Of a stretch of 64,000 nt of DNA, positions 19,137-30,078 are shown piece after piece. Location of the stretch: the NCBI RefSeq assembly GCF_900090105.1, contig NZ_FMDM01000007.1:248001-312000 (forward strand), given 5' to 3'. Under the pieces are notes generated by a model. That model ran no database searches and was not told the origin of the DNA. It saw only the letters and a program-made list of their open reading frames with translations. Position 1 is the first letter of the stretch. Each line of letters begins with the position of its first letter. Position numbers and translations under genes: made by a program. The stretch comes from Micromonospora humi (GTDB lineage Bacteria > Actinomycetota > Actinomycetes > Mycobacteriales > Micromonosporaceae).

Positions 19137-20140
19137 GCGGGCACGTCGCGGTGCTGGGCGCCGGGTCGTGGGGGACCGCGTTCGCCAAGATCCTCGCCGA
19201 CGCCGGCCGGGACGTGACGGTCCTGGCCCGCCGGCCCGCGGTGGCCGAGGCGATCCGCGACGGGCGGCACAACCCGGAGTACCTGCCGGACGTGCGCCTG
19301 CCCGAGCGGGTCACCGCCACCGGCGACGCCGCCGAGGCGATCGAGGGCGCCGAGGTGGTGGTGCTCTCGGTGCCCTCGCAGACGCTGCGCGGCAACCTCG
19401 CCGAGTGGACCCCGCACCTCGCGCCCGACGCCACGCTGGTGTCCCTGATGAAGGGCATCGAGCTGGGCACCACCAAGCGGATGAGTCAGGTGATCATGGA
19501 GACCGCCGGGGTGCCGGCCGACCGGGTGGTCGTCGTCTCCGGGCCCAACCTGGCCCCGGAGATCGCCGCCGAGCAGCCGGCCGCCACCGTGGTCGCCGGC
19601 ACCGACAGCCGGCGTACGGCACTGGTCCAGGCGTCGATCCGGACGCCCTACTTCCGCCCGTACACCAACGACGACGTGATCGGCTGCGAGCTGGGCGGGG
19701 CGGTCAAGAACGTGATCGCGCTGTCGTACGGCATCGCCACCGCGATGGGCTTCGGCGACAACACCCGGGCCATGCTGATGACCCGGGGCCTGGCCGAGAC
19801 CGCCCGCCTCGGCGTGGCGCTGGGCGCCGACCCGATCACCTTCGCCGGGCTGGCCGGCATGGGCGACCTGGTCGCCTCCTGCTCCTCGCCGCTGGCCCGC
19901 AACCGCACGTTCGGCGAGCACCTGGGCCGGGGCGAGACGCTGGAGCAGGCCCAGGCGGCCACCCGGCAGACCGCCGAGGGCGTGAAGAGTTGCCTGGCCA
20001 TCCGGGACCTGGCCCGGGCGCACGGGGTGGAGATGCCGATCACCGAGCAGATCGAGCGGATCTGCCACGAGGGGATGGATCCCCGGCTGGCCGTGGACGC
20101 GCTGATGAGCCGCACCGCCAAGCCGGAGTCCTACGAGTGA
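19133..20140 (+). CDS. gpsA: NAD(P)H-dependent glycerol-3-phosphate dehydrogenase
   Basis: Encodes 335 aa. The start ATG 19133 overlaps the plsC stop (ATGA). The N-terminal Rossmann motif is [14 protein letters not shown]; the catalytic Lys lies in [16 protein letters not shown], and [14 protein letters not shown] and SRNRTFG-type C-terminal blocks follow. It reduces dihydroxyacetone phosphate to sn-glycerol-3-phosphate for phospholipid synthesis. It sits in the plsC-gpsA-PLP enzyme operon. Confidence 0.97.
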
Positions 20141-21255
20141 GCGCGGGCTGGGGGGACGGCACCCGCAGCGTGCGCGCCGGGCTCCCGGACGCCGTACCCG
20201 GGCAGCCGTTCCTGCCCGGCCCGGTCTTCGCCGCGCCCTACCACCTCGACCCGTGGCGCGGCCCGGCGGCGGCGCCCGACGGGTACGGGCGGCCGGACAA
20301 CCCCACCCGCCGGCTCCTGGAGGCGGCGATCGGCGAGCTGGAGGGCGGCGACTGCCGGGTCTTCGCCAGCGGCCAGGCGGCCATCACCGGGCTGCTGCTG
20401 ACCGTGCTGCGACCCGGCGACACCGTGCTGCTCCCCGCCGACGGCTACTTCCCGGTGCGCGCGTTCGCCACCGACACCCTGGAGCGGATCGGGGTGCGCG
20501 TCGGTCTGGTGCCGACCGCCGGGCCGTACCCGTCGTTCGAGGGCGTGCGGCTGGTGCTGCTGGAGACGCCGGCGAACCCGGGCCTCGACGTCGCCGACGT
20601 GCCGGCGCTGGCCGCGGCGGCGCACGCCGCCGGCGCGTTGTTGGCGGTGGACAACACCACCGCCACCCCGCTCGGGCAGCGTCCGCTGGACCTCGGCGCG
20701 GACGTGGTGGTCGCCTCCGGGACGAAGGCGCTCACCGGCCACTCGGACCTGCTGCTCGGCTACGTGGCGACGCGCGACGACGCGCTGCGGGACGCGGTGA
20801 CCGGTTGGCGGACCACCACCGGCGGGGTGCCCGGCGCGTTCGACTGCTGGCTGGCCCACCGTTCGCTGGCCACCGTCGACCTGCGGCTGGCCCGGCAGGC
20901 CGCCAACGCCGAGGCGCTGGCCGGGCTGCTCGCCGGTCGGCCGGACGTCGCGGGCCTGCGCTGGCCCGGGCGGCCGGCGGACCCGGCGTACCCGGTGGCG
21001 TCGGCGCAGATGCGCCGGATGCCCGGCGTGCTCTCCTTCGACCTGGGTGACGCCGACCGGGTGGCCCGGTTCCTCGACGCGTCCCGCCTGGTGGCCGCCG
21101 CCACCTCGTTCGGCGGCCTGCACACCACTGCCGACCGGCGGGCCCAGTGGGGCGACGACACCGCACCCGGCTTCGTCAGGCTCTCCTGCGGCATCGAGGA
21201 CCCCGCCGACCTGGTCGCCGACGTGGCCGCGGCACTGGACGCCGCCACGGGCTGA
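20137..21255 (+). CDS. PLP-dependent Cys/Met metabolism enzyme (cystathionine gamma-lyase/synthase family)
   Basis: Encodes 372 aa from GTG 20137, which overlaps the gpsA stop (GTGA). The PLP lysine is Lys197 in [25 protein letters not shown] supplies the phosphate-binding region and ETPANPGL the cofactor-ring contact. The fold is that of the Cys/Met metabolism PLP family, which includes cystathionine gamma-synthase, gamma-lyase and methionine gamma-lyase. The sequence alone does not decide among them, though gamma-lyase is the usual label in this neighbourhood. Confidence 0.88.
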
Positions 21256-21275
21256 CGGCGGGCCGGGCGCTGGGC

Positions 21276-21281
21276 TATCGT
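21276..21281 (+). promoter_or_regulatory. -10 box TATCGT of the prmC-like gene
   Basis: TATCGT predicts a start near 21288, leaving a leader of about 140 nt before ATG 21428. Confidence 0.45.
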
Positions 21282-21320
21282 GACGGCAGCCACGGCCCGT
21301 GCGGCCCCGACACCGAGGAG

Positions 21321-21383
21321 GTGAGTCCGATCCACCAGCAGAGGACCGGCGCTCCCTCCGAGTCCGTGTCGCCCCGGGGCTGA
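21321..21383 (+). CDS. Possible 20-aa leader ORF
   Basis: GTG 21321 is preceded by CGAGGAG and runs 20 codons to TGA 21381-21383, ending 44 bp before the methyltransferase start. The product is Ser/Pro/Gln-rich with no obvious stalling run. It could control translation of the downstream gene. Confidence 0.35.
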   Translation: MSPIHQQRTGAPSESVSPRG

Positions 21384-21427
21384 GGCGACGCCGGGGGCGC
21401 CGACGAGCGTTCCCCGAAAGGCTTGCC

Positions 21428-22219
21428 ATGGCATCCACCGTGTTCACTCCCGACCGTTCCGCCCTCGTCCACCGGCTGCGCGCCGCCGGCTGTGTCTTCG
21501 CCGAGGACGAGGCGGAGCTGCTGATCGCCGCCGCCGACTCGGCGCGGGCGCTGGCCCGGCTGGTCGACCGCCGCGTCGCCGGCCTCCCGCTGGAGCACCT
21601 GCTCGGCTGGGCCGAGTTCTGCGGGCGGCGGGTCGCCGTCCACCCGGGCGTGTTCGTGCCGCGCGGGCGTACCGCGTTGCTGGTCGCCGCCGCGGCGGCG
21701 GTCGCCGGGCCGGCGCCGGCGGTGCTCGACCTGTGCTGCGGCTCCGGCGCCGCCGCGCTGGTGCTGCACGACCGGCTGGCGCCCCGGTGGCTGGGCGCCG
21801 CCGACGTCGACCCGGTCGCGGTGGCCTGCGCCCGGCGCAACCTCGACCCGCTGGGCGTGCCGGTCTACCAGGGCGATCTGTTCGACCCGGTGCCGGCCCG
21901 CTGGCGTGGCCGGCTGGACCTGGTGGTGGCGAACGCCCCCTACGTGCCGAGTGACGCGGTGGCGACGTTGCCGGTCGAGGCACGGGTGCACGAGGCCGCG
22001 GTGGCGCTGGACGGTGGCGCGGACGGGCTGGCGGTGCTGCGCCGGGTCGCCGCCGGCGCGGCCGAGTGGCTGGCGCCGGGCGGGCACCTCGCGGTCGAGG
22101 TGAGCGCCGAGCAGGCCCCGGCGCTCTGCGCGGCGGTGACCGCCGTCGGGCTCGACCCGAGCGTGGTGCGCGACGAGGAGTGGGAGGCGACCGCCGTGAC
22201 CGCGCGCCGTCCAGGCTGA
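21428..22219 (+). CDS. PrmC-like protein N5-glutamine methyltransferase
   Basis: Encodes 263 aa from ATG 21428 (GAAAGG upstream). An N-terminal helical domain (about 1-80, with LEHLLGWAEFCGRRV) precedes a class I SAM-dependent fold with VLDLCCGSGAAALVL. The catalytic NPPY motif of PrmC is NAPY here, as in a family related to but distinct from the release-factor methyltransferase. A protein glutamine target is inferred. The true release-factor enzyme is usually beside prfA, not in this neighbourhood. Confidence 0.82.
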   Translation: MASTVFTPDRSALVHRLRAAGCVFAEDEAELLIAAADSARALARLVDRRVAGLPLEHLLGWAEFCGRRVAVHPGVFVPRGRTALLVAAAAAVAGPAPAVLDLCCGSGAAALVLHDRLAPRWLGAADVDPVAVACARRNLDPLGVPVYQGDLFDPVPARWRGRLDLVVANAPYVPSDAVATLPVEARVHEAAVALDGGADGLAVLRRVAAGAAEWLAPGGHLAVEVSAEQAPALCAAVTAVGLDPSVVRDEEWEATAVTARRPG

Positions 22220-22286
22220 CGTCGGCGTGGCGGGTGGCCGCGCCGAGAACTAACCTCGGGTCAGGCTCGACGGGGAGGCGGTGGCG

Positions 22287-23321
22287 GTGGGCAGCGCAGG
22301 GGTGCCGGTGGTGGTGGGGCTGGACAACGGCGGCACGAGCAACAACGCCACCGTGCTGACCGTCGACGGCCGTTTCCTGGTGGACGGGCTGCTGGAGATC
22401 CCGAGCGAGGTCGGCGCCGGGCCGGAGGCGGCGATCGAGGCCCTCGCGCGGGCGCTCGACGGCGTGCTGGCGCACACCGGGGTGCCGCGCGAGCTGGTGC
22501 GCGCGGTCGGGCTGGACACGCCCGGTCCGGCCAGCGCCACCGGGGTGATCTCGTCGCGCGGGTCGACCAACTTCGCCCAGCCGGCGTGGCGCGGCTACGA
22601 CGTGCGCGGCGCGCTCGAGCGACGGCTCGGCCTGCCGGTGGTCTACGCCAACGACGGCAACGCCGCCGCCCTCTACGCCCATCACGTGCACTTCGGCGCG
22701 GACGCGATGGCCCGCTCGTCGGTGTCCGCGATCGTCGGCACCGGCCTGGGCGGGGGCGTGGTGCAGAGCGGTCGGGTGGTCGGTGGTGCGGCCGGCATGG
22801 CCGGCGAGTTCGGGCACGTGCACATCCCGCTGGACGGGCTGCTGGAGCCGGGTCAGCCGGCGCCGGTCTGCGCCTGCGGTTTCACCGGTGACGCGGAGAG
22901 CGTCGCCTCGCTCACCGCGATCCGGCGCAACCTGCTGCCGTACTGGCTGTCCCGGTATCCGGAGCACCCGCTGGCCGCGGAGGAGCCCGCCCGGGCCGCG
23001 AAGCTGCTACGCGAGCACGGCGAGCGGGGCGACCCGCTGGCCCGCCAGGTTTTCGGCCAGCAGGCCCGGGCGCTGGGGCGGCTGTTCACCATCGCGGCCA
23101 ACTTCACCGACCCGCACGCGTACTTCGTCGGCGGCGGCGTGGTGGAGGCGGCGCCGGAGTTCCGCGACTGGTTCCTCGCCACGGTCGCCGCGCACACGGT
23201 GCTCCGCGACGAGCAGCGTGCCGTGGCGACGTTCGCCCTGGTGCCCGACCGTGACATGGCCGGCGCCCGGGGCGTCGCCATCGCCGCCCTGGAGGCGGTG
23301 AAAGGCGGGACCCCCGCTTAA
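22287..23321 (+). CDS. ROK-family sugar kinase-like protein
   Basis: Encodes 344 aa from GTG 22287, which has GGGGAGG at an 8-base spacing; GTG 22281 is too close to it. The ATPase phosphate motif is GLDNGGTSNNATVL, the catalytic Asp lies in ANDGNAAALY, and GTGLGGGVV is the second phosphate loop. The ROK zinc motif CxCGxxGCxE is degenerate, reading CACGFTGDAES, so the last Cys is lost. No DNA-binding domain is present, so a kinase rather than a repressor is likely; the substrate is unknown. The last five residues and the stop are encoded by a repeat element. Confidence 0.83.
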   Translation: MGSAGVPVVVGLDNGGTSNNATVLTVDGRFLVDGLLEIPSEVGAGPEAAIEALARALDGVLAHTGVPRELVRAVGLDTPGPASATGVISSRGSTNFAQPAWRGYDVRGALERRLGLPVVYANDGNAAALYAHHVHFGADAMARSSVSAIVGTGLGGGVVQSGRVVGGAAGMAGEFGHVHIPLDGLLEPGQPAPVCACGFTGDAESVASLTAIRRNLLPYWLSRYPEHPLAAEEPARAAKLLREHGERGDPLARQVFGQQARALGRLFTIAANFTDPHAYFVGGGVVEAAPEFRDWFLATVAAHTVLRDEQRAVATFALVPDRDMAGARGVAIAALEAVKGGTPA

Positions 23322-23354
23322 CACCTTTCGCATAGGAGGGGGCCCCGCTTAACA
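23304..23354. repeat. GTTAAGCGGGGG repeat element B
   Basis: On the minus strand two direct GTTAAGCGGGG(G) half-units stand about 30 bp apart, joined by a CCTATGCGAAAGG-like bridge. The first half-unit supplies the ROK stop codon TAA 23319-23321. The element separates the ROK gene from the convergent DUF397 gene. Confidence 0.8.
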
Positions 23355-23370
23355 GGCGCGGCGCGTGCCG

Positions 23371-23571
23371 TCAGGCGCGCGGGGGCGCGGTGGTGAAGGC
23401 GGCCCAGGCGGCCGGCGGGAAGACCAGCACCGGGCCGGCCGGGTCCTTGGAGTCGCGCACCGCGACCGACTCCGGCAGCGGCGCCATCTCCACGCATGCG
23501 CCTTCGTCGCCGCTGTGGCTGCTCTTGCGCCAGCCGGTCGGCGTGGGGTGGGGCCGGTTCGTGCCGTTCAT
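23371..23571 (-). CDS. DUF397 domain protein
   Basis: Encodes 66 aa with the DUF397 pattern WRKSSHSGDEGACVEMA and VAVRDSKDPAGPVLVF. ATG 23571 is chosen because AGAGGTG stands six bases upstream; that Shine-Dalgarno overlaps the stop of the XRE gene, so translation is coupled. DUF397 proteins pair with XRE/DUF5753 regulators (as in bldB/whiJ/abaA-like loci) in large numbers in actinobacteria and may bind the regulator to modulate development or toxin-antitoxin-like behaviour. Confidence 0.88.
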   Translation of the reverse strand: MNGTNRPHPTPTGWRKSSHSGDEGACVEMAPLPESVAVRDSKDPAGPVLVFPPAAWAAFTTAPPRA

Positions 23572-23575
23572 GCGG

Positions 23576-24421
23576 TCACCTCTCATTCAGCAGACGGAGG
23601 AGCTGGTCCCGACTGGCCGCCGGGCTCAGCGCCACGGTCCGCAGGTGCTCCATGATCTTGGTGCAGGTACGCAGGTCGCCCGGCCGGTCCAGCACCATCT
23701 GACCGGCGACGGTCTCCACCGAGGCGATGATCGGGTCCTCGGGGTCGGCGAACTCCAGGATGTGCAGCGATCCCCGGGTGCCCCGGTGGTAGCCGGCGGC
23801 CAGCGGGATCACCTGCACGGTGATGTTCGGGAGCTCGGACATCTTCAGCAGGTGGTGGAGCTGGTCGGCCATCACCGAGTGGCCGCCGACGGGCCGCAGC
23901 AACGCGCCCTCGTCGATGATGGCGTCGAGGATCGGCGGGTCCTCCCCGGAGATGCGTTGCTGACGGTCCAGCCGGAGCTGCACGCGTTGCTCGACCTGTT
24001 CGTCGCTGAGCGTGTGCGGGCCACCGCGCATCACTCCGCGGATGTAGTCGGCGGTCTGGAGCAGGCCCGGCACCACCGACGGCTCGAAGTTGGCAATGCC
24101 GGTGGCCTCGGCCTCCAGCGCGATGAAGTCGATGGTGCGGCGGTCCAGCAGGTAGGAGTAGGACACCCACCAGCCGGGCTTGCGGGCGTCCTTGGCCAGT
24201 TGCACCGCCGCTTCGATCTCGTCGGGTCCCACGCCGTAGCTGGTCAGCAGCGCGCGCACGGTGGCCGGGCTGATCAGCGTCTGGGCGTTCTCGTAGCGGG
24301 ACAGGGTGCTCCGGGTGCTGTTGATCTCATCGGCCGCGGTCTCCAGGGTGAGGCCGGCGGCCTCCCGGTGGGTCCGTAGCGCGATGCCGAGCCGTCGGGC
24401 CCGCGCGGTCTTCGACGCCAT
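23576..24421 (-). CDS. XRE-family regulator with DUF5753 domain
   Basis: Encodes 281 aa from ATG 24421. An N-terminal helix-turn-helix (about 8-65, LGIALRTHREAAGLTLETAA and RSTLSRYENAQ) is followed by a DUF5753 domain (about 95-275, from EAEATGIANFEPSVVPGLLQT). This is the usual partner of DUF397 and the two are adjacent and coupled here. No clear Shine-Dalgarno precedes the start. Many genomes of this group carry dozens of such pairs. Confidence 0.9.
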   Translation of the reverse strand: MASKTARARRLGIALRTHREAAGLTLETAADEINSTRSTLSRYENAQTLISPATVRALLTSYGVGPDEIEAAVQLAKDARKPGWWVSYSYLLDRRTIDFIALEAEATGIANFEPSVVPGLLQTADYIRGVMRGGPHTLSDEQVEQRVQLRLDRQQRISGEDPPILDAIIDEGALLRPVGGHSVMADQLHHLLKMSELPNITVQVIPLAAGYHRGTRGSLHILEFADPEDPIIASVETVAGQMVLDRPGDLRTCTKIMEHLRTVALSPAASRDQLLRLLNER

Positions 24422-24654
24422 GCATCGATGGTCGCACATCCGGTGGGAGAATGGGCATGAGAGAAAGCCGATGAGAGTTGCATTCACGCCTGTCCACCTG
24501 TCAATCTGTGACAGCGTCCTCACCGCCGGTTGTCGTGGCGACGGTGGTGGTGAGTGACCGGAGGGGATGGGGCGCGCGGCGATCGGGTTTTACTCCCCCA
24601 CGACCCGATCGTCGCGTGCCCGTACCGGTCCACCAGGCGGGGAGGGGTTACGCG

Positions 24655-24702
24655 ATGACGGTGACGGCCTGCCACCCCGGCGACGGGGGTGGCCGGAGAT
24701 GA
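24655..24702 (+). CDS. 15-aa ORF coupled to the next gene
   Basis: ATG 24655 has GGAGGGG seven bases upstream and runs 15 codons to TGA 24700-24702, which overlaps ATG 24699 of the next ORF (ATGA). The peptide is Gly-rich at its end. It may be a leader that delivers ribosomes to the downstream start, which lacks its own well-spaced Shine-Dalgarno. Confidence 0.45.
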   Translation: MTVTACHPGDGGGRR

Positions 24703-24923
24703 CCCGGTTCCTGGTGGTCCTCACCGACGTGCGACCGGTCAACGGTCACGAGCGCGACGAACGCACCACCCCCGAGCGCCGCCGGCAGGTGGTCGGCGCG
24801 AGCAGCCGAGAGGCGGCCGAGCGGATCGCCGGCGCGTTCATGGCGCTGGGCATGGTCCGCGCCGGCCGCCAGCGGGTCAAGGTGATCGCGGTCGGCCGTC
24901 GGCCCCGGCATCCGGCCTCCTGA
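24699..24923 (+). CDS. Small protein of unknown function (74 aa)
   Basis: The 74-aa product is basic in its second half and may form a beta-alpha-alpha-beta unit (MTRFLVVLTDV at the start, VKVIAVGRR near the end). I recognise no family. GGAG lies immediately before the ATG, too close to act well, so initiation probably depends on the overlapping 15-aa ORF. It is followed by a hairpin at 24935-24966. Confidence 0.5.
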   Translation: MTRFLVVLTDVRPVNGHERDERTTPERRRQVVGASSREAAERIAGAFMALGMVRAGRQRVKVIAVGRRPRHPAS

Positions 24924-24934
24924 ACCACACCGGG

Positions 24935-24966
24935 CCCGACCCCTGGACGCGGCGACCGGGGTCGGG
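24935..24966 (+). terminator. Hairpin after the 74-aa ORF
   Basis: CCCGACCCC (24935-24943) pairs with GGGGTCGGG (24958-24966). Confidence 0.5.
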
Positions 24967-25009
24967 GAGCCGGGCGGCCGGTGGCAGGTCCCGCCGCCGG
25001 TCGCCCGGG

Positions 25010-25039
25010 CCGCCGTCCCGGGTGCGGTCGGGACGGCGG
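25010..25039. terminator. Second hairpin upstream of ddl
   Basis: CCGCCGTCCC and GGGACGGCGG form a perfect 10-bp stem with a 10-nt loop. The rest of 24924-25158 has no gene that I can support. Confidence 0.45.
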
Positions 25040-25158
25040 CGTACCGGGTGGCCGAGGGCCGATACCGAGTCGTTACTCCCCGTATAAGTTGTCTTGACCG
25101 TTTGCCATGCGGCACCGCGTCTCCCCGGGTATCGGCCACCGCTCCCGACGACGCACAG

Positions 25159-25164
25159 TAAGGT
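25159..25164 (+). promoter_or_regulatory. -10 box TAAGGT for the ddl transcript
   Basis: TAAGGT lies at -13 to -8 of GTG 25172, so transcription probably begins at the leader ORF. Confidence 0.55.
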
Positions 25165-25171
25165 CAACCGG

Positions 25172-25222
25172 GTGAGCGCCACCGGCGTGCACGGCCAGCC
25201 GCAGCCGCGAACGATGAGGTGA
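25172..25222 (+). CDS. Leaderless 16-aa ORF upstream of ddl
   Basis: GTG 25172 begins a 16-codon frame ending at TGA 25220-25222, two bases before the ddl ATG 25225. The -10 box is at leaderless spacing. The arrangement would couple ddl translation to that of this peptide. Confidence 0.45.
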
Positions 25223-25224
25223 CC

Positions 25225-26328
25225 ATGACCACCCCAGGCAAGACCCGTGTGGCGATCGTCTTCGGCGGCCGCAGCCCCGAACACGGCATCTCCTGCGTCA
25301 GCGCCGGCAGCGTGCTGGCCGCCCTCGACCCGGACGAGTTCGAGGTCGTCCCGGTCGGCATCACCCGGCAGGGGCAGTGGGTGCTCGCCAGCGGCGACCC
25401 GGCGCAGCTCGCCATCGCCGACCGCAAGCTGCCCGAGATCACCGCCGGCTCCGGCGCCGAACTGGTGCTGCGCGCCGACCCGGCCGCCGGTGGCCTGATG
25501 GTGCTCGACCCGGCCCAGGGCCCGGTGGCGCTGGCCGACGTGGACGTGGTCTTCCCGGTGCTGCACGGCGCGTACGGCGAGGACGGCACCATCCAGGGCA
25601 TGCTGGAGATGGCGGACATCCCCTACGTCGGTGCGAACGTGTTCGCGTCCGCCGCCGCCATGGACAAGGAGTTCACCAAGAAGCTCTGCGCGGCCGAGGG
25701 CATCCCGGTCGGCCCGTACGCGGTGCTGCGCGCCGGCATGTCGCTCACCGAGGAGGACAAGGAGCGCCTCGGGCTGCCGGTCTTCGTCAAGCCGTCCCGG
25801 GCCGGCTCGTCGTTCGGCATCACCAAGGTCGACGACTGGGCGCAGCTCGACGCCGCCCTGGCCACCGCGCGGGAGATCGACAGCAAGGTGCTGGTCGAGG
25901 GCGCCGTGGTGGGCCGCGAGATCGAGTGCGGCGTGCTGGAGGGCGAGGCCGGCGGCGCGCCCGAGGCGTCGGTGCTCGCCGAGGTGCGGATGATCGGCGA
26001 CCGCGACTGGTACGACTTCGAGGCCAAGTACATCTTCGCCGACGAGGTGACCGAGTACGACGTCCCGGCCGGCCTGCCCGACGCGGTGACCCGGCAGGTG
26101 CGCGACTACGCCACCCGCGCCTTCACCGCGCTGGACTGCTCCGGGCTGGCCCGGGTCGACTTCTTCGTCACCCCGGAGCTGGACGTCTATCTCAACGAGA
26201 TCAACACGATGCCGGGCTTCACCCCGACGTCGATGTTCCCGCGCATGTGGGCGGCGAGCGGGCTGGAATACCCGAAGCTGGTCAACCGCCTGATCCGCAC
26301 CGCCCTGCAGCGCCGCGCCGGCCGCTGA
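25225..26328 (+). CDS. ddl: D-alanine--D-alanine ligase
   Basis: Encodes 367 aa from ATG 25225 (GAGG five bases upstream). It joins two D-Ala for peptidoglycan precursors. N-terminal [19 protein letters not shown], the ATP-grasp blocks [14 protein letters not shown] and [15 protein letters not shown], and the metal/product block [17 protein letters not shown] are intact. The omega-loop region reads [10 protein letters not shown], with the Tyr typical of D-Ala-D-Ala rather than D-Ala-D-Lac ligases. Its 3' end is part of a hairpin shared with the convergent DUF3515 gene. Confidence 0.96.
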
Positions 26329-26338
26329 CGGCCGGCGC
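26315..26338. terminator. Bidirectional hairpin embedded in the ddl stop
   Basis: GCGCCGGCC and GGCCGGCGC form a perfect 9-bp stem whose 6-nt loop contains the ddl TGA. The convergent gene ends at 26344. Confidence 0.6.
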
Positions 26339-26343
26339 CGGTC

Positions 26344-26931
26344 TCACCCGGAGCAGCCCGAGGGGACCTGCTTCGCCGAGGGCACCGCGCTGACGATCGC
26401 GTCCGAGATCGGGGTGACCCACTGCAACGGCTGCTCGTACGCCTTCGGCACCCGGACCCGGACCGGGGTCTCCCGGTCGACGGTGGTCAACACCGTCGCG
26501 TCGGCCTCCTGCACCGAGTGCCAGCAGACCTTGTTGACGGTCCACACCTCGTCGGTCGGTTGCACCAGCGGCGCGCTCCCGCCGCAGGCCACGGTGAGCG
26601 CCGGGTCGCCGTAGGCGGCGTTCTGCTCGGGGCCCGCGGTGACCGGACGCTGCCGCAGGTCACGCACGCTGTCGGGCAGCTGCGACACCAGCGCGCGGCA
26701 GAGGACGGCCGGCCGCTGGGCCAGTGCCGGGGCGGGCAGCTCGACCGGTGCGCTCGACTGCGCCCGGGGGCTGGTCGAGGCGTTCTGCGTGGCCTCCGGC
26801 GACTCGGGGGCCAGCTTGGCGAACGTGAAGGCGGCCACCGCCAGGGTCACCGGCACCGCCACCACTGTCGCCCAGAGCGCGGCACGGCGGGTGCTGCCGT
26901 CCCGGCGCGGGGTGTCGTCCGTCTCGTCCAC
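26344..26931 (-). CDS. DUF3515 membrane protein
   Basis: Encodes 195 aa: about 17 cytoplasmic residues, one TM (about 18-39), and an outside domain with three to four Cys (CRALVSQLPDSVRDL, VACGGSAP, VCWHSV, VPSGCSG). This matches DUF3515, the family of mycobacterial Rv2980, which also sits between ddl and thiL. GTG 26931 follows the stop of the Lrp-type gene with no gap, so the two are translationally coupled. Function is unknown; a link to cell-envelope growth is only suggested by the neighbourhood. Confidence 0.85.
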   Translation of the reverse strand: MDETDDTPRRDGSTRRAALWATVVAVPVTLAVAAFTFAKLAPESPEATQNASTSPRAQSSAPVELPAPALAQRPAVLCRALVSQLPDSVRDLRQRPVTAGPEQNAAYGDPALTVACGGSAPLVQPTDEVWTVNKVCWHSVQEADATVLTTVDRETPVRVRVPKAYEQPLQWVTPISDAIVSAVPSAKQVPSGCSG

Positions 26932-27165
26932 TTACAGTCGCACCACCGAACACGTGAGGGTGCGGGTGATGCCGGGCACCATCTGCACCTTGCTGACGAT
27001 GAGTTTGCCCAGCTCGTCGACGGTGTTCGCCTCGGTGAGCACGACCACGTCGTAGGGCCCGGTGACGGCGTCGACCCGAACCACGCCGGCAAGGTCCGCG
27101 ATCAGACCGGCCACGTCACGCGCCCGACCGACCTCGGTCTGGATGAGGATGTACGCCTGTACCAC
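26932..27165 (-). CDS. Lrp/AsnC ligand-binding (RAM) domain protein
   Basis: Encodes 77 aa from GTG 27165, with GGAGG six bases upstream. The whole protein is the alpha-beta RAM domain (VQAYILIQTEVGRARDV, VVRVDAVTGPYDVVVLTEA) and there is no DNA-binding part. Stand-alone RAM proteins can bind amino acids and may associate with full-length Lrp regulators. It is coupled to the DUF3515 gene. Confidence 0.88.
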   Translation of the reverse strand: MVQAYILIQTEVGRARDVAGLIADLAGVVRVDAVTGPYDVVVLTEANTVDELGKLIVSKVQMVPGITRTLTCSVVRL

Positions 27166-27332
27166 GACTCGACCTCCGTCCGTCGCCGCCTGGGGCGGCC
27201 CGAAGGGTGAAACTACCGCACCGGGCGAGGGTGATCCCTATCGGTCGCCAGGTGGACGCGGTGAGCGAGCACACGTCGGTACGGGGACAGGGGTGGGACG
27301 TGCGGGACGACGGAGCGGGACGAGGGGACGGC

Positions 27333-28271
27333 ATGACGGTCGCGGGTGTCGGGGAGTTCGGGCTGATCGACCGGGTGACCGCCCGGCTGTCGTACGGGGA
27401 GAGCTGCCTGCTCGGCCCCGGCGACGACGCCGCGCTGGTGGCGGCGCCGGACCGGCGGGTGGTCGCCTCCACCGACGTGCTGGTCGAGGGGCGGCACTTC
27501 CGCCGGGACTGGTCGTCGGCGCGGGACGTGGGTCACCGGGCGGCGGCGGCCAACCTGGCCGACGTCGCCGCCATGGGGGCCACCCCGACCGCGCTGCTGG
27601 TCGCGCTCTGCATGCCCGCCGAGCTGGATCCGGCCTGGGCCGAGGAGTTGGCCGACGGGCTGGGCGCGGAGGCGGCCGGGATCGGCGCGAGTGTGGTCGG
27701 CGGCGACATGTCGGCCAGCCCGACGCTGACCGTCGCGGTGACCGCGCTCGGCGACCTGGCCGGCCGGGCACCGGTGGTCCGGTCCGGGGCCCGGCCGGGG
27801 GACGTGGTGGCACTGGCCGGGCGGACGGGCTGGGCGGCGGCCGGCTACACCGTGCTGTCTCGGGGCTTCCGCACGCCCCGCCTGCTGGTCGAGGCGTTCC
27901 GCCGGCCCGAGGTGCCGTACGCCGCCGGGCCGGCCGCCGCGGCGGCCGGCGCCACCGCCATGATCGACGTGTCGGACGGGCTGCTCGCCGACCTCGGGCA
28001 CGTGGCGAGGGCCAGCGGGGCGGCGATCGACCTGCACCGGGACGCGTTCGAGGTGCCCCGGCAGATGCGCGACGCGGCGCAGGCGCTCGGCGTCGACCCG
28101 TACACCTGGATCCTGGCCGGCGGCGACGACCACGCCCTGGCGGCGACGTTCCCGGCGGGCGCGGCGCTGCCGGACGGCTGGCGGCCGGTCGGGCGGGTGA
28201 CCGACGGCGCCGGCGTCACCGTCGACGGCGCCGGCTACGACGGCCCGCCCGGCTGGGACCACTTCCGGTAG
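27333..28271 (+). CDS. thiL: Thiamine-monophosphate kinase
   Basis: Encodes 312 aa from ATG 27333 (GAGGGG upstream); GTG starts further up are possible but less supported. It phosphorylates thiamine monophosphate to the diphosphate coenzyme. The PurM/ThiL fold shows GPGDDAALV, STDVLVEGRHF, NLADVAAMGATP, GGDMSASP, MIDVSDGLLADLGH and GGDDHALAA. The position after ddl and DUF3515 is the conserved actinobacterial one. Confidence 0.94.
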   Translation: MTVAGVGEFGLIDRVTARLSYGESCLLGPGDDAALVAAPDRRVVASTDVLVEGRHFRRDWSSARDVGHRAAAANLADVAAMGATPTALLVALCMPAELDPAWAEELADGLGAEAAGIGASVVGGDMSASPTLTVAVTALGDLAGRAPVVRSGARPGDVVALAGRTGWAAAGYTVLSRGFRTPRLLVEAFRRPEVPYAAGPAAAAAGATAMIDVSDGLLADLGHVARASGAAIDLHRDAFEVPRQMRDAAQALGVDPYTWILAGGDDHALAATFPAGAALPDGWRPVGRVTDGAGVTVDGAGYDGPPGWDHFR

Positions 28272-28338
28272 CCGGTGCGCGGCAGTGATCTGCGTCCGAC
28301 CTCGGGGGCGGGGAACGGCCCGGCGCCGGGGCCGGTCG

Positions 28339-28344
28339 TAACCT
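28339..28344 (+). promoter_or_regulatory. -10 box TAACCT, leaderless
   Basis: TAACCT at -12 to -7 of GTG 28351. Confidence 0.6.
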
Positions 28345-28350
28345 GAGCCG

Positions 28351-28818
28351 GTGAGCGAGATCGAGATCCTCCCGCGGCGCTTCGACGCCCCGGAGTCGCA
28401 GGCGTTGATCCGGGCGGCGCTCGCCGACCTGGGCGCGCGGTACGGCGGCAGCGGCGACGAGACGCCCGTCGACGCGGCCGAGTTCGTCCCGCCGGCCGGC
28501 GCGTTCCTGGTCGCCTACCTGGACGGGCGGCCGGTGGGCTGCGGCGGCTGGCGCAGCCACGGCGAGGACGGGGACGCGGCCGAGCTGAAGCGGATGTACA
28601 CCGACCCGGCCGCCCGGGGCCGGGGCGTGGCCCGTTCCGTGCTCGCCGCTGTCGAACGGTCCGCGCGCGACGCCGGCCGCAAGCGGATCGTGCTGGAGTG
28701 CGGCGACAAGCAGCCCGAGGCGATCGCCCTGTACACGACGTCCGGCTACGAGCGGATCCCAAACTTCGGCTACTACCGGGACGCGCCGGGCTGCCTGTCG
28801 TTCGGTCGTACCCTCTGA
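28351..28818 (+). CDS. GNAT family N-acetyltransferase
   Basis: Encodes 155 aa. Acetyl-CoA-binding motif A is MYTDPAARGRGVARSVLAA (R/Q-x-x-G-x-G/A), followed by the C-terminal ALYTTSGYERIPNFGYY block. The acceptor substrate cannot be told. It is probably a leaderless single gene. Its stop and that of the convergent ATP-grasp gene are three bases apart and share a small hairpin (28818-28833). Confidence 0.87.
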   Translation: MSEIEILPRRFDAPESQALIRAALADLGARYGGSGDETPVDAAEFVPPAGAFLVAYLDGRPVGCGGWRSHGEDGDAAELKRMYTDPAARGRGVARSVLAAVERSARDAGRKRIVLECGDKQPEAIALYTTSGYERIPNFGYYRDAPGCLSFGRTL

Positions 28819-28821
28819 CCG

Positions 28822-30078
28822 TCAGCCGACGGTGATGCGGATCTCCCCGGCGGCCCGGCGGGCGGCGACCGCCGCCTCGTCCGGGGTGGCGCCCCAGGCC
28901 ATCAGGTGCCCGCTGCGGTGCGCCGAGGAGAGCAGCTCCGGCACGGTCTGCCCGACCTTCGTCTCGACCTGCACGTCGAGCACCCCCGGCACCCGCAGCG
29001 CGGCCCGTCGGCCGTCCACCGCGGTGACCCGGCCGGGCGGGGCGACCAGGAACTCGATGGCCGCCGCGCCGGTCGGCCGCTGCGGCAGCGCCGGGCGTTC
29101 GCCGCACAGCACCCGCAGGTACGCCTCGATGACGTCCCGCTCGTAGGCGATCGAGATGAGCGCGGTGATCATGTCGCCGGGCATCCGGGCCGCGCACTCC
29201 ACGAGCGTCGGCACGCCGTCGACCAGGATCCACTCGCTGTGCAGCATGCCGCTGCGGAAGCCGGCCGCCTCGGCGAGGCGGACCGCCGCGGACCGCAACG
29301 CGTCGTGCTCGGCCGCGGGCAGCGCGGACGGCACGGTGTGCCCGGTCTCCACCGGGTACCGGCCGCCGGCGACCCGCTTGTCGGTGACGTTCGCGAAGAG
29401 CACCTCGCCGTCGGCGACCAGCAGTTCCACGCTGTGCTCGGAACCGACCAGCAGCTCCTCGACCAGCACGCCGGTGGGCAGGCCGCGCTCGGTGGCCTCG
29501 GCCGGCTCGGGCGGGGTGGCGCTGGCCGCCCAGCGGGCCGGCAGCTCGGCCGGGTCGGTGATCAGCTGCACGCCGAGGCTGCCCGAGCGTCGGGTCGGCT
29601 TGAGCACGCACCGGCCGCCGTGCGCCCGGGCGAACGCGACCGCCCGGTCCGGGTCGTCGACCAGCTCGTAGGCGGGGTTGGCCAGGCCGATCTCGTCGGC
29701 GAGCAGGCGCATCCGGTGCTTGTCGGAGAAGACGTCCGCGGCGGTCGCGCCGGCGCCGGGCAGGCCGAGCCGCTCGGCCAGCCGGGCGGTGGCGCTCACC
29801 GCGTACTCCAGGCCGGGCAGGACCAGCCGCGCGCCGGCCAGGCCGGGTTCGCGGGCGACCAGGTCGTCGACGTCCAGGCCGGTCTGGTATTCCGCCGCCA
29901 CCAGCCGGCCGATCAGCGGCAGCTCGGCGGCGAACCGGGTCAGCTCGCGGCGGCGGATCACGTCCGGCTCCTCGACCAGCACCACGCTGCCGGCCGGCAG
30001 CTCCTGGTCGAACCAGCGCAGTGAGCCGAACGACCCGCCGACCACCACCAGTTGCTCGCGACCCAGATCGAGGTGCAC
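28822..30078 (-). CDS. ATP-grasp carboxylate-amine ligase-like protein
   Basis: Encodes 418 aa if started at GTG 30078, where GGGGAGGA stands eight bases upstream. An open frame to GTG 30198 would add 40 residues but has no ribosome site and runs into the rpmB terminator. The ATP-grasp fold shows SDKHRMRLLADEIG, GGRCVLKPTRRSGSLGVQL, LVEELLVGSEHSVELLV and VECAARMPGDMI. These are close to L-amino-acid ligase/BtrJ-type enzymes that make peptide or amide bonds. No carrier protein or partner enzyme is adjacent, so the product is unknown. Confidence 0.83.
   Translation of the reverse strand: MHLDLGREQLVVVGGSFGSLRWFDQELPAGSVVLVEEPDVIRRRELTRFAAELPLIGRLVAAEYQTGLDVDDLVAREPGLAGARLVLPGLEYAVSATARLAERLGLPGAGATAADVFSDKHRMRLLADEIGLANPAYELVDDPDRAVAFARAHGGRCVLKPTRRSGSLGVQLITDPAELPARWAASATPPEPAEATERGLPTGVLVEELLVGSEHSVELLVADGEVLFANVTDKRVAGGRYPVETGHTVPSALPAAEHDALRSAAVRLAEAAGFRSGMLHSEWILVDGVPTLVECAARMPGDMITALISIAYERDVIEAYLRVLCGERPALPQRPTGAAAIEFLVAPPGRVTAVDGRRAALRVPGVLDVQVETKVGQTVPELLSSAHRSGHLMAWGATPDEAAVAARRAAGEIRITVG

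Follow-up and report, generated by a model that had tools for sequence, protein, structure and literature searches.

Why does the ddl gene of Micromonospora humi carry, between its promoter and its own start codon, a GTG that opens a frame of 16 codons and closes it two bases short of the gene? The question arises in the window, a 64,000-nucleotide stretch of the genome (NZ_FMDM01000007.1, positions 248,001 to 312,000 of the forward strand). An initial annotation of this DNA proposed that transcription starts on the tiny ORF, and that ribosomes finishing it are placed on the ddl site, a possible control point for a cell-wall enzyme. The elements on which it built (TAAGGT, GTG, 16 sense codons, TGA, the dinucleotide CC and ATG 25225) are all present when the sequence is read (Table 1). 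As an interpretation it holds up in one half: a leaderless transcript start is well supported by comparison with relatives, a selected coupling to ddl is not. We propose that GTG 25172 is, very probably, the retained start codon of a ddl gene that was ancestrally leaderless, and that the mini-ORF is incidental, because in most relatives sampled, outgroups included, the ddl start itself sits at the same offset from a similar -10 element.

The gene at issue is readily identified. The downstream protein matches both the Dala_Dala_lig_N and the Dala_Dala_lig_C families of Pfam; the program-made ORF list places the ddl start at the in-frame GTG 25219, and relatives use the codon equivalent to 25225. 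The stop codon of the mini-ORF is nothing other than the final three bases of the Shine-Dalgarno (SD) sequence GAGGTGA, which we take to be complementary to the 3′ end of 16S rRNA. The closest named relatives of the locus belong to Micromonospora, a genus understood here in the broad sense. Upstream of ddl the window carries an XRE-type regulator with a DUF5753 domain (23576-24523, minus strand); a different gene occupies that place in three loci of other genera (L157, L159 and L194), and its end, judged by eye, presumably belongs to a gpsA-like gene. A similar ddl upstream region, 83.8% identical, is found at NZ_CP045310.1:21499-21730 of Micromonospora terminaliae. That record, 24.9 kb long and carrying ddl, is listed as a non-mobilizable plasmid and is possibly an unplaced piece of the chromosome.

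Table 1. Features of the ddl locus, with coordinates in the window and the observation behind each assignment.
Feature	Position	Strand	Observation
Upstream block GTTACTCCCCGTATAA, conserved (GTTACGCACCGTATAT as consensus of the genus); possibly a regulator site	25072..25087		A25075, C25076, G25082 and T25083 the same in all 119 rows
Conserved block GGGTATCG, 24 bases upstream of the -10	25127..25134		GGGTAT 97-100% identical, 119 rows
Promoter core CGACGCACAGTAAGGTC around the -10	25149..25165	+	On the genus tree, three of the 17 sites show 4, 6 and 5 changes, the remaining 14 show 0-1 each
-10 element TAAGGT	25159..25164	+	114 TAAGGT, 4 TAGGGT, 1 TAGTGT among 119 genus rows
Predicted transcription start, G 6-8 nt past the -10	25170..25172	+	Predicted from -10 spacing and leaderless-type ddl genes
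GTG, probable relic of ancestral leaderless ddl start codon	25172..25174	+	Offset from -10 matches ddl's own start in leaderless-type relatives; ddl start in G009; in Micromonospora sp. NBS 11-29 also ddl start, in frame and three codons ahead
Mini-ORF, 16 codons, incidental	25172..25222	+	No coding constraint
Shine-Dalgarno sequence GAGGTGA of ddl	25216..25222	+	Genus-conserved; includes mini-ORF stop TGA 25220-25222
ddl, D-alanine--D-alanine ligase	25225..26328	+	Pfam PF01820 and PF07478; end from ORF list

Where does transcription begin? We searched 121 genomes of the genus, of which 119, M. humi included, gave a Ddl match at E ≤ 1e-60; two genomes without a ddl match (G010 and G014) were left out of all genus counts, and the 118 other upstream regions were fetched. 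Changes were counted on a genus tree built from ddl coding DNA with a quick IQ-TREE run (119 genus rows and two outgroups). The -10 element has the form TARKGT in 119 of 119 sequences, and both CACAGTAAGGTC and the core CACAGTA(A/G)(G/T)GTC are almost invariant. In 118 of the 119 genomes the ddl start lies 42-68 nt past this element. Given a near-invariant core, the same spacing at the ddl starts of related genera, and two Micromonospora genomes that start ddl at this very position, the transcript probably has its 5′ end at GTG 25172 or no more than two bases from it. The comparison thus backs the proposal that transcription starts on the tiny ORF, at a position predicted from these three observations. 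The M. humi genome itself offers some support. We read both strands of 464 kb, made up of the window and 20 stretches of 20 kb each. This sample contains 31 TARGGT hexamers, and 17 of them precede an ATG or GTG by 6-8 nt; shuffled sequence (a mononucleotide shuffle of one strand, doubled) gives 10 of 114. All but two of these 17 start codons, 15 in number, begin frames of 125 amino acids or more, the exceptions being a 21-codon frame and the present mini-ORF. The looser pattern TANNNT shows no excess of RTG at 6-8 nt in the same 464 kb (119 cases, 156 when shuffled), so that the within-genome support is limited to TARGGT.

The origin of the GTG becomes apparent outside the genus. From 100 genomes of other genera with a match, 40 loci were fetched, covering 32 genera of the family. 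A script found TANNNT 4-9 nt before an in-frame ddl start in 28 of the 40; with L189, whose hit lies 84 nt upstream, counted as leadered, the figure is 27 of 40 loci and 23 of 32 genera. As background, of 1582 start codons lying 200-600 bases further upstream, taken from the family loci and the named ones, 5 have TANNNT at such spacing. One locus of the family set, L157, has no TANNNT at its ddl start. A scan of named genomes contributed 80 loci, the best of 571 relatives. The leaderless architecture is seen in Phytohabitans, Catellatospora, Rugosimonospora, Asanoa, Planosporangium and Actinocatenispora, and also in Geodermatophilus, Pseudonocardia, Kutzneria, Rhodococcus and Mycobacterium; ddl starts 6-9 nt past TANNNT in the 23 genera, and does so too in the majority of outgroup loci, which came from Geodermatophilaceae, Pseudonocardiaceae and Mycobacterium. 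The ddl genes of three leaderless-type loci (L161, L183, L194) also open with GTGAGC. Both the promoter-proximal GTGAGC and the GTGACC of the ddl start resemble the ancestral start.

A wider tree, made by a quick method under LG+G4, comprises 114 rows with 107 distinct proteins; its root was set by 15 rows from Pseudonocardiales and Mycobacteriales that we selected. It holds 61 leaderless rows, 51 leadered rows and two of neither class (L252 and L266); L210 was counted as leadered and in frame by inspection. All 15 outgroup rows are leaderless, as are all 26 family rows outside one clade of 63 rows, and it is within this clade (95% SH-aLRT) that all 51 leadered rows fall. The clade also holds 12 leaderless rows (among them Phytohabitans, Asanoa, g10 and the two leader-loss genomes), intermixed with the others, many of them on weak branches. 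On this distribution the leaderless arrangement is likely the ancestral state of ddl, a direction that depends on the chosen outgroup and on quick trees, and the leader was likely gained within the family, either once with reversals or several times.

Two members of the genus appear to have travelled the road back. In G009 the promoter is joined directly to GTGAGCACCCCAGG, so that the promoter-proximal GTG is the ddl start. This exact pattern was met in one of 160 genus genomes, and at E ≤ 1e-60 the G009 genome contains just one Ddl match. The leader of Micromonospora sp. NBS 11-29 is cut down to GTGAGCGCC; the arrangement reads TAAGGT, seven nucleotides, GTGAGCGCC and ATGACC, with the GTG in frame. 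Both lie within leadered clades, and both are draft assemblies; the NBS 11-29 locus reads N at a position 110 bases before the start. These leader losses give strong hints, at the level of sequence, that the GTG is where transcription starts and that ddl can be sustained by leaderless initiation at this codon.

What sequence of events might have produced the present locus? We draw on what comparison has shown of the sequences, namely a conserved promoter, leaderless relatives, two leader losses and an absence of coding or frame constraint (see below). In the ancestor, the promoter would have set the first base of the transcript at or beside the ddl start codon, and ribosomes would have initiated on the 5′-terminal RTG with no SD. 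A leader bearing GAGGTGA may then, in the line leading to Micromonospora, have come between the promoter-proximal GTG and ddl, upon which translation of ddl would have shifted to the SD-led start some 50 bases downstream, with promoter, transcript start and GTG retained. The mini-ORF would be a chance reading of this leader, from the GTG to the TGA within the SD. In the cell of today, RNA polymerase most likely starts at 25170-25172, giving a message that begins at or no more than two bases from the GTG. Since a 5′-end RTG suffices for translation initiation in mycobacteria (PMC4633059), some ribosomes probably start at this codon, translate 16 codons and stop in the SD, while ddl would be translated mainly from its own SD. 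GTG 25172 is thus probably still used, weakly, and we infer that any effect of this initiation on ddl is minor at most and not under selection. Its persistence would be due mostly to the conservation of the promoter and the first transcribed bases and not to the frame that it opens.

How the first transcribed bases evolve bears directly on this last point. The sites of GGTGAGCGCC after the start codon have undergone 1-5 changes each, compared with 11-17 at sites just downstream. The 16-codon frame is common to 53 rows, without gaps, and in this group the leader as a whole has accumulated 27 changes in 48 sites against 133 in 49 third positions of ddl. Slow change in both leader and GGTGAGCGCC implies that something is conserved at the DNA or RNA level. 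Might the GTGAGCG block be kept only as promoter and initially transcribed sequence, with no ribosome starting there and the ORF a coincidence? The middle T of the GTG has changed five times on the genus tree and its direct neighbours once or twice, and the block is also conserved in a clade of 18 genomes that has lost the start codon; both points favour this reading. We nevertheless regard this explanation as somewhat unlikely: the codon must start Ddl in the two leader-loss genomes and among relatives of the leaderless type, and the sufficiency of a 5′-terminal RTG in mycobacteria likewise tells against an idle codon. The slow change of GGTGAGCGCC leaves room for a role of the start codon that is independent of frame, although the middle T is more changeable than the bases beside it. 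The relic RTG could be kept as a leaderless landing site for 70S ribosomes, one that still serves to feed, protect or pace a ddl message translated from its SD; we think it unlikely, and offer it as a speculation. If true, ddl would be a dual-mode gene poised between leaderless and SD-led translation and reverting upon deletion of its leader.

Is the frame itself under selection, as a coupled uORF would demand? In that reading terminating ribosomes are passed from a selected leaderless uORF to the ddl SD, and expression is set by termination and reinitiation. Leaderless small ORFs coupled through RTGA are indeed over-represented in mycobacteria (PMC4633059), 53 rows share the same 16-codon length, and in 78 of the 119 genomes the stop is found close to the ddl start (2-7 nt short of it in 59, overlapping it in 19); but the frame runs in phase into ddl in 15 genomes, stands in some other relation, stopping elsewhere, in four, and in one ddl is itself leaderless. 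The remaining 21 have neither GTG nor TTG after the -10. Where such a codon is present (98 of 119) it stands at 7 nt in 91, and parsimony counts four losses, three of them forced by well-supported branches. The classes of relation to ddl require 27 changes in all on the genus tree. Neither a stop held at the ddl start nor a conserved start codon, as expected of a selected coupled uORF, is therefore what the 119 genomes display. The initial annotation had itself named want of conservation of the small frame in relatives as grounds for giving up the coupling, and that is largely what we find: the start is lacking in 21 of 119 and the position of the stop drifts.

The codons are equally silent. 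In the 53 rows, substitutions by codon position number 12/8/7 in the mini-ORF, compared with 5/14/133 in ddl codons 2-50 of the same rows; variant codons of the mini-ORF comprise three synonymous and 12 nonsynonymous cases, with 22% synonymous expected at random. There is neither a codon-position bias nor a synonymous excess in the mini-ORF across these rows, so the 16-codon frame is conserved as DNA, not as codons. As codon positions change alike and the synonymous share is near random, the small frame is not selected as a peptide. Moreover, its closure next to ddl needs no special explanation. When leaders were shuffled with the GTG and the SD fixed, 89% remained open to the same TGA in the present frame, whereas after removal of one base or two from the leader the share ending near the ddl start was 4% or zero; these figures mean that about one frame in three is coupled by default. 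The open frame and its stop at ddl are no more than chance, with the SD supplying the stop. ddl also has a strong SD of its own. We consider a coupling maintained by selection quite improbable, and a conserved control point at this site is not supported by the comparison: the GTG is absent from 21 of the 119 genomes, its frame stands in no fixed relation to ddl, the codons carry no bias and the stop belongs to the SD.

Still less probable, and in our view very much so, is that the leaderless GTG yields a second, N-terminally extended isoform of Ddl, toggled by frame shifts in the leader. The 15 genus genomes with the GTG in frame with ddl (L071, L073 and L081 among them) would be its natural examples, but the small frame closes ahead of ddl in the window, and likewise in the 59 genomes whose stop immediately precedes the gene, and the in-frame state is scattered, requiring 11 changes on the genus tree. 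That the leader is a structured RNA, an attenuator or riboswitch in which the ORF is incidental, is very improbable. In its favour is the slow nucleotide-level evolution of the leader in the 53-row group; against it stand a mean folding z of -0.13 (median -0.26) over 118 leaders, almost no covariation among 73 distinct leaders, and the absence of any Rfam match at the gathering threshold within window positions 20000-30000.

With a retained start codon as the preferred explanation, how does the locus compare with systems already described? Mycobacteria are known to have leaderless small ORFs, some of which share an RTGA with the start of the following gene (Shell et al. 2015, PMC4633059). The Micromonospora ddl loci share with them a 5′-terminal RTG and a short frame ending near the start of the next gene, and include both the stop-in-leader and the RTGA-overlap classes. 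They differ in that the start codon can be traced to the former start of the downstream gene, in that the frame is unconserved, and in being known from sequence alone. With the peptide-dependent leader ORFs, such as the cysteine-rich leaderless uORF attenuators (PMC4633059), the present case has in common that a biosynthetic transcript opens with a short ORF; unlike them it has, by the codon test, no conserved peptide and, by eye, no run of pathway residues. Orthologs in Actinobacteria switch between TA-like-led and SD-led initiation (Zheng et al. 2011, PMC3160421), and ddl is likewise an ortholog set with TA-led and SD-led members. That study works with genome-wide substitution rates, and its distance, as reported there, states no direction. 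The single locus analysed here shows, given the outgroup, a direction, a leftover start codon and two reversals. In the literature covered by our searches, on ddlA, Rv2981c and the Streptomyces ligase in connection with leaderless starts, we found no paper on the ddl start, and a locus that shows old start codon, direction and reversals together seems to be new. It would provide a sequence-resolved case, in a cell-wall gene, of a leaderless ancestor, the gain of an SD leader, an old start left behind at the promoter and two reversals. Natural variants in named Micromonospora strains make the effect of each step measurable by reporters. More generally, some 'leaderless uORFs' may be leftover start codons and not regulators.

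Other ddl loci show variations of their own. Six Mycobacterium ddl genes (L265, L269, L270, L272, L273 and L274) have TAGCCT 9 nt before an in-frame GTG which, in four of the six, lies 10-12 codons before the aligned start; this suggests a leaderless Mycobacterium ddlA with a short extension. Loci of the Actinoplanes group (L226, L228-L230, L232, L236-L239 and L253) possess a ddl leader of different sequence, with the start 38-75 nt past the -10 and without a start codon at 5-8 nt (L239 has an ATG at 9), and this leader is perhaps an independent gain. As they lack an RTG, such leadered rows are uninformative on its retention.

Conservation also extends upstream of the promoter core. GTTACTCCCCGTATAA sits 85-100 bases 5′ of the predicted transcript start, and one of its halves resembles the half-site GTKAYS of MtrA. 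Published MtrA motifs read GtnAcC-n5-GTnAcn, or GTKAYS repeats 5 nt apart (PMC13189361, PMC10714768), and ddlA is reported to be among the peptidoglycan genes altered in an Actinoplanes mtrA mutant (PMC10714768). An MtrA site at 25072-25087 fits in at best one half-site, with a spacing one base short, and we keep it as a lead. CACAGTAAGGT has a single exact occurrence in the M. humi genome, and we discarded it as a recurring regulon site. The second block, GGGTATCG, lies at the same distance from the -10 in every row that was compared by eye. It does not look like a normal -35, and could be an activator site or the -10 of a second promoter.
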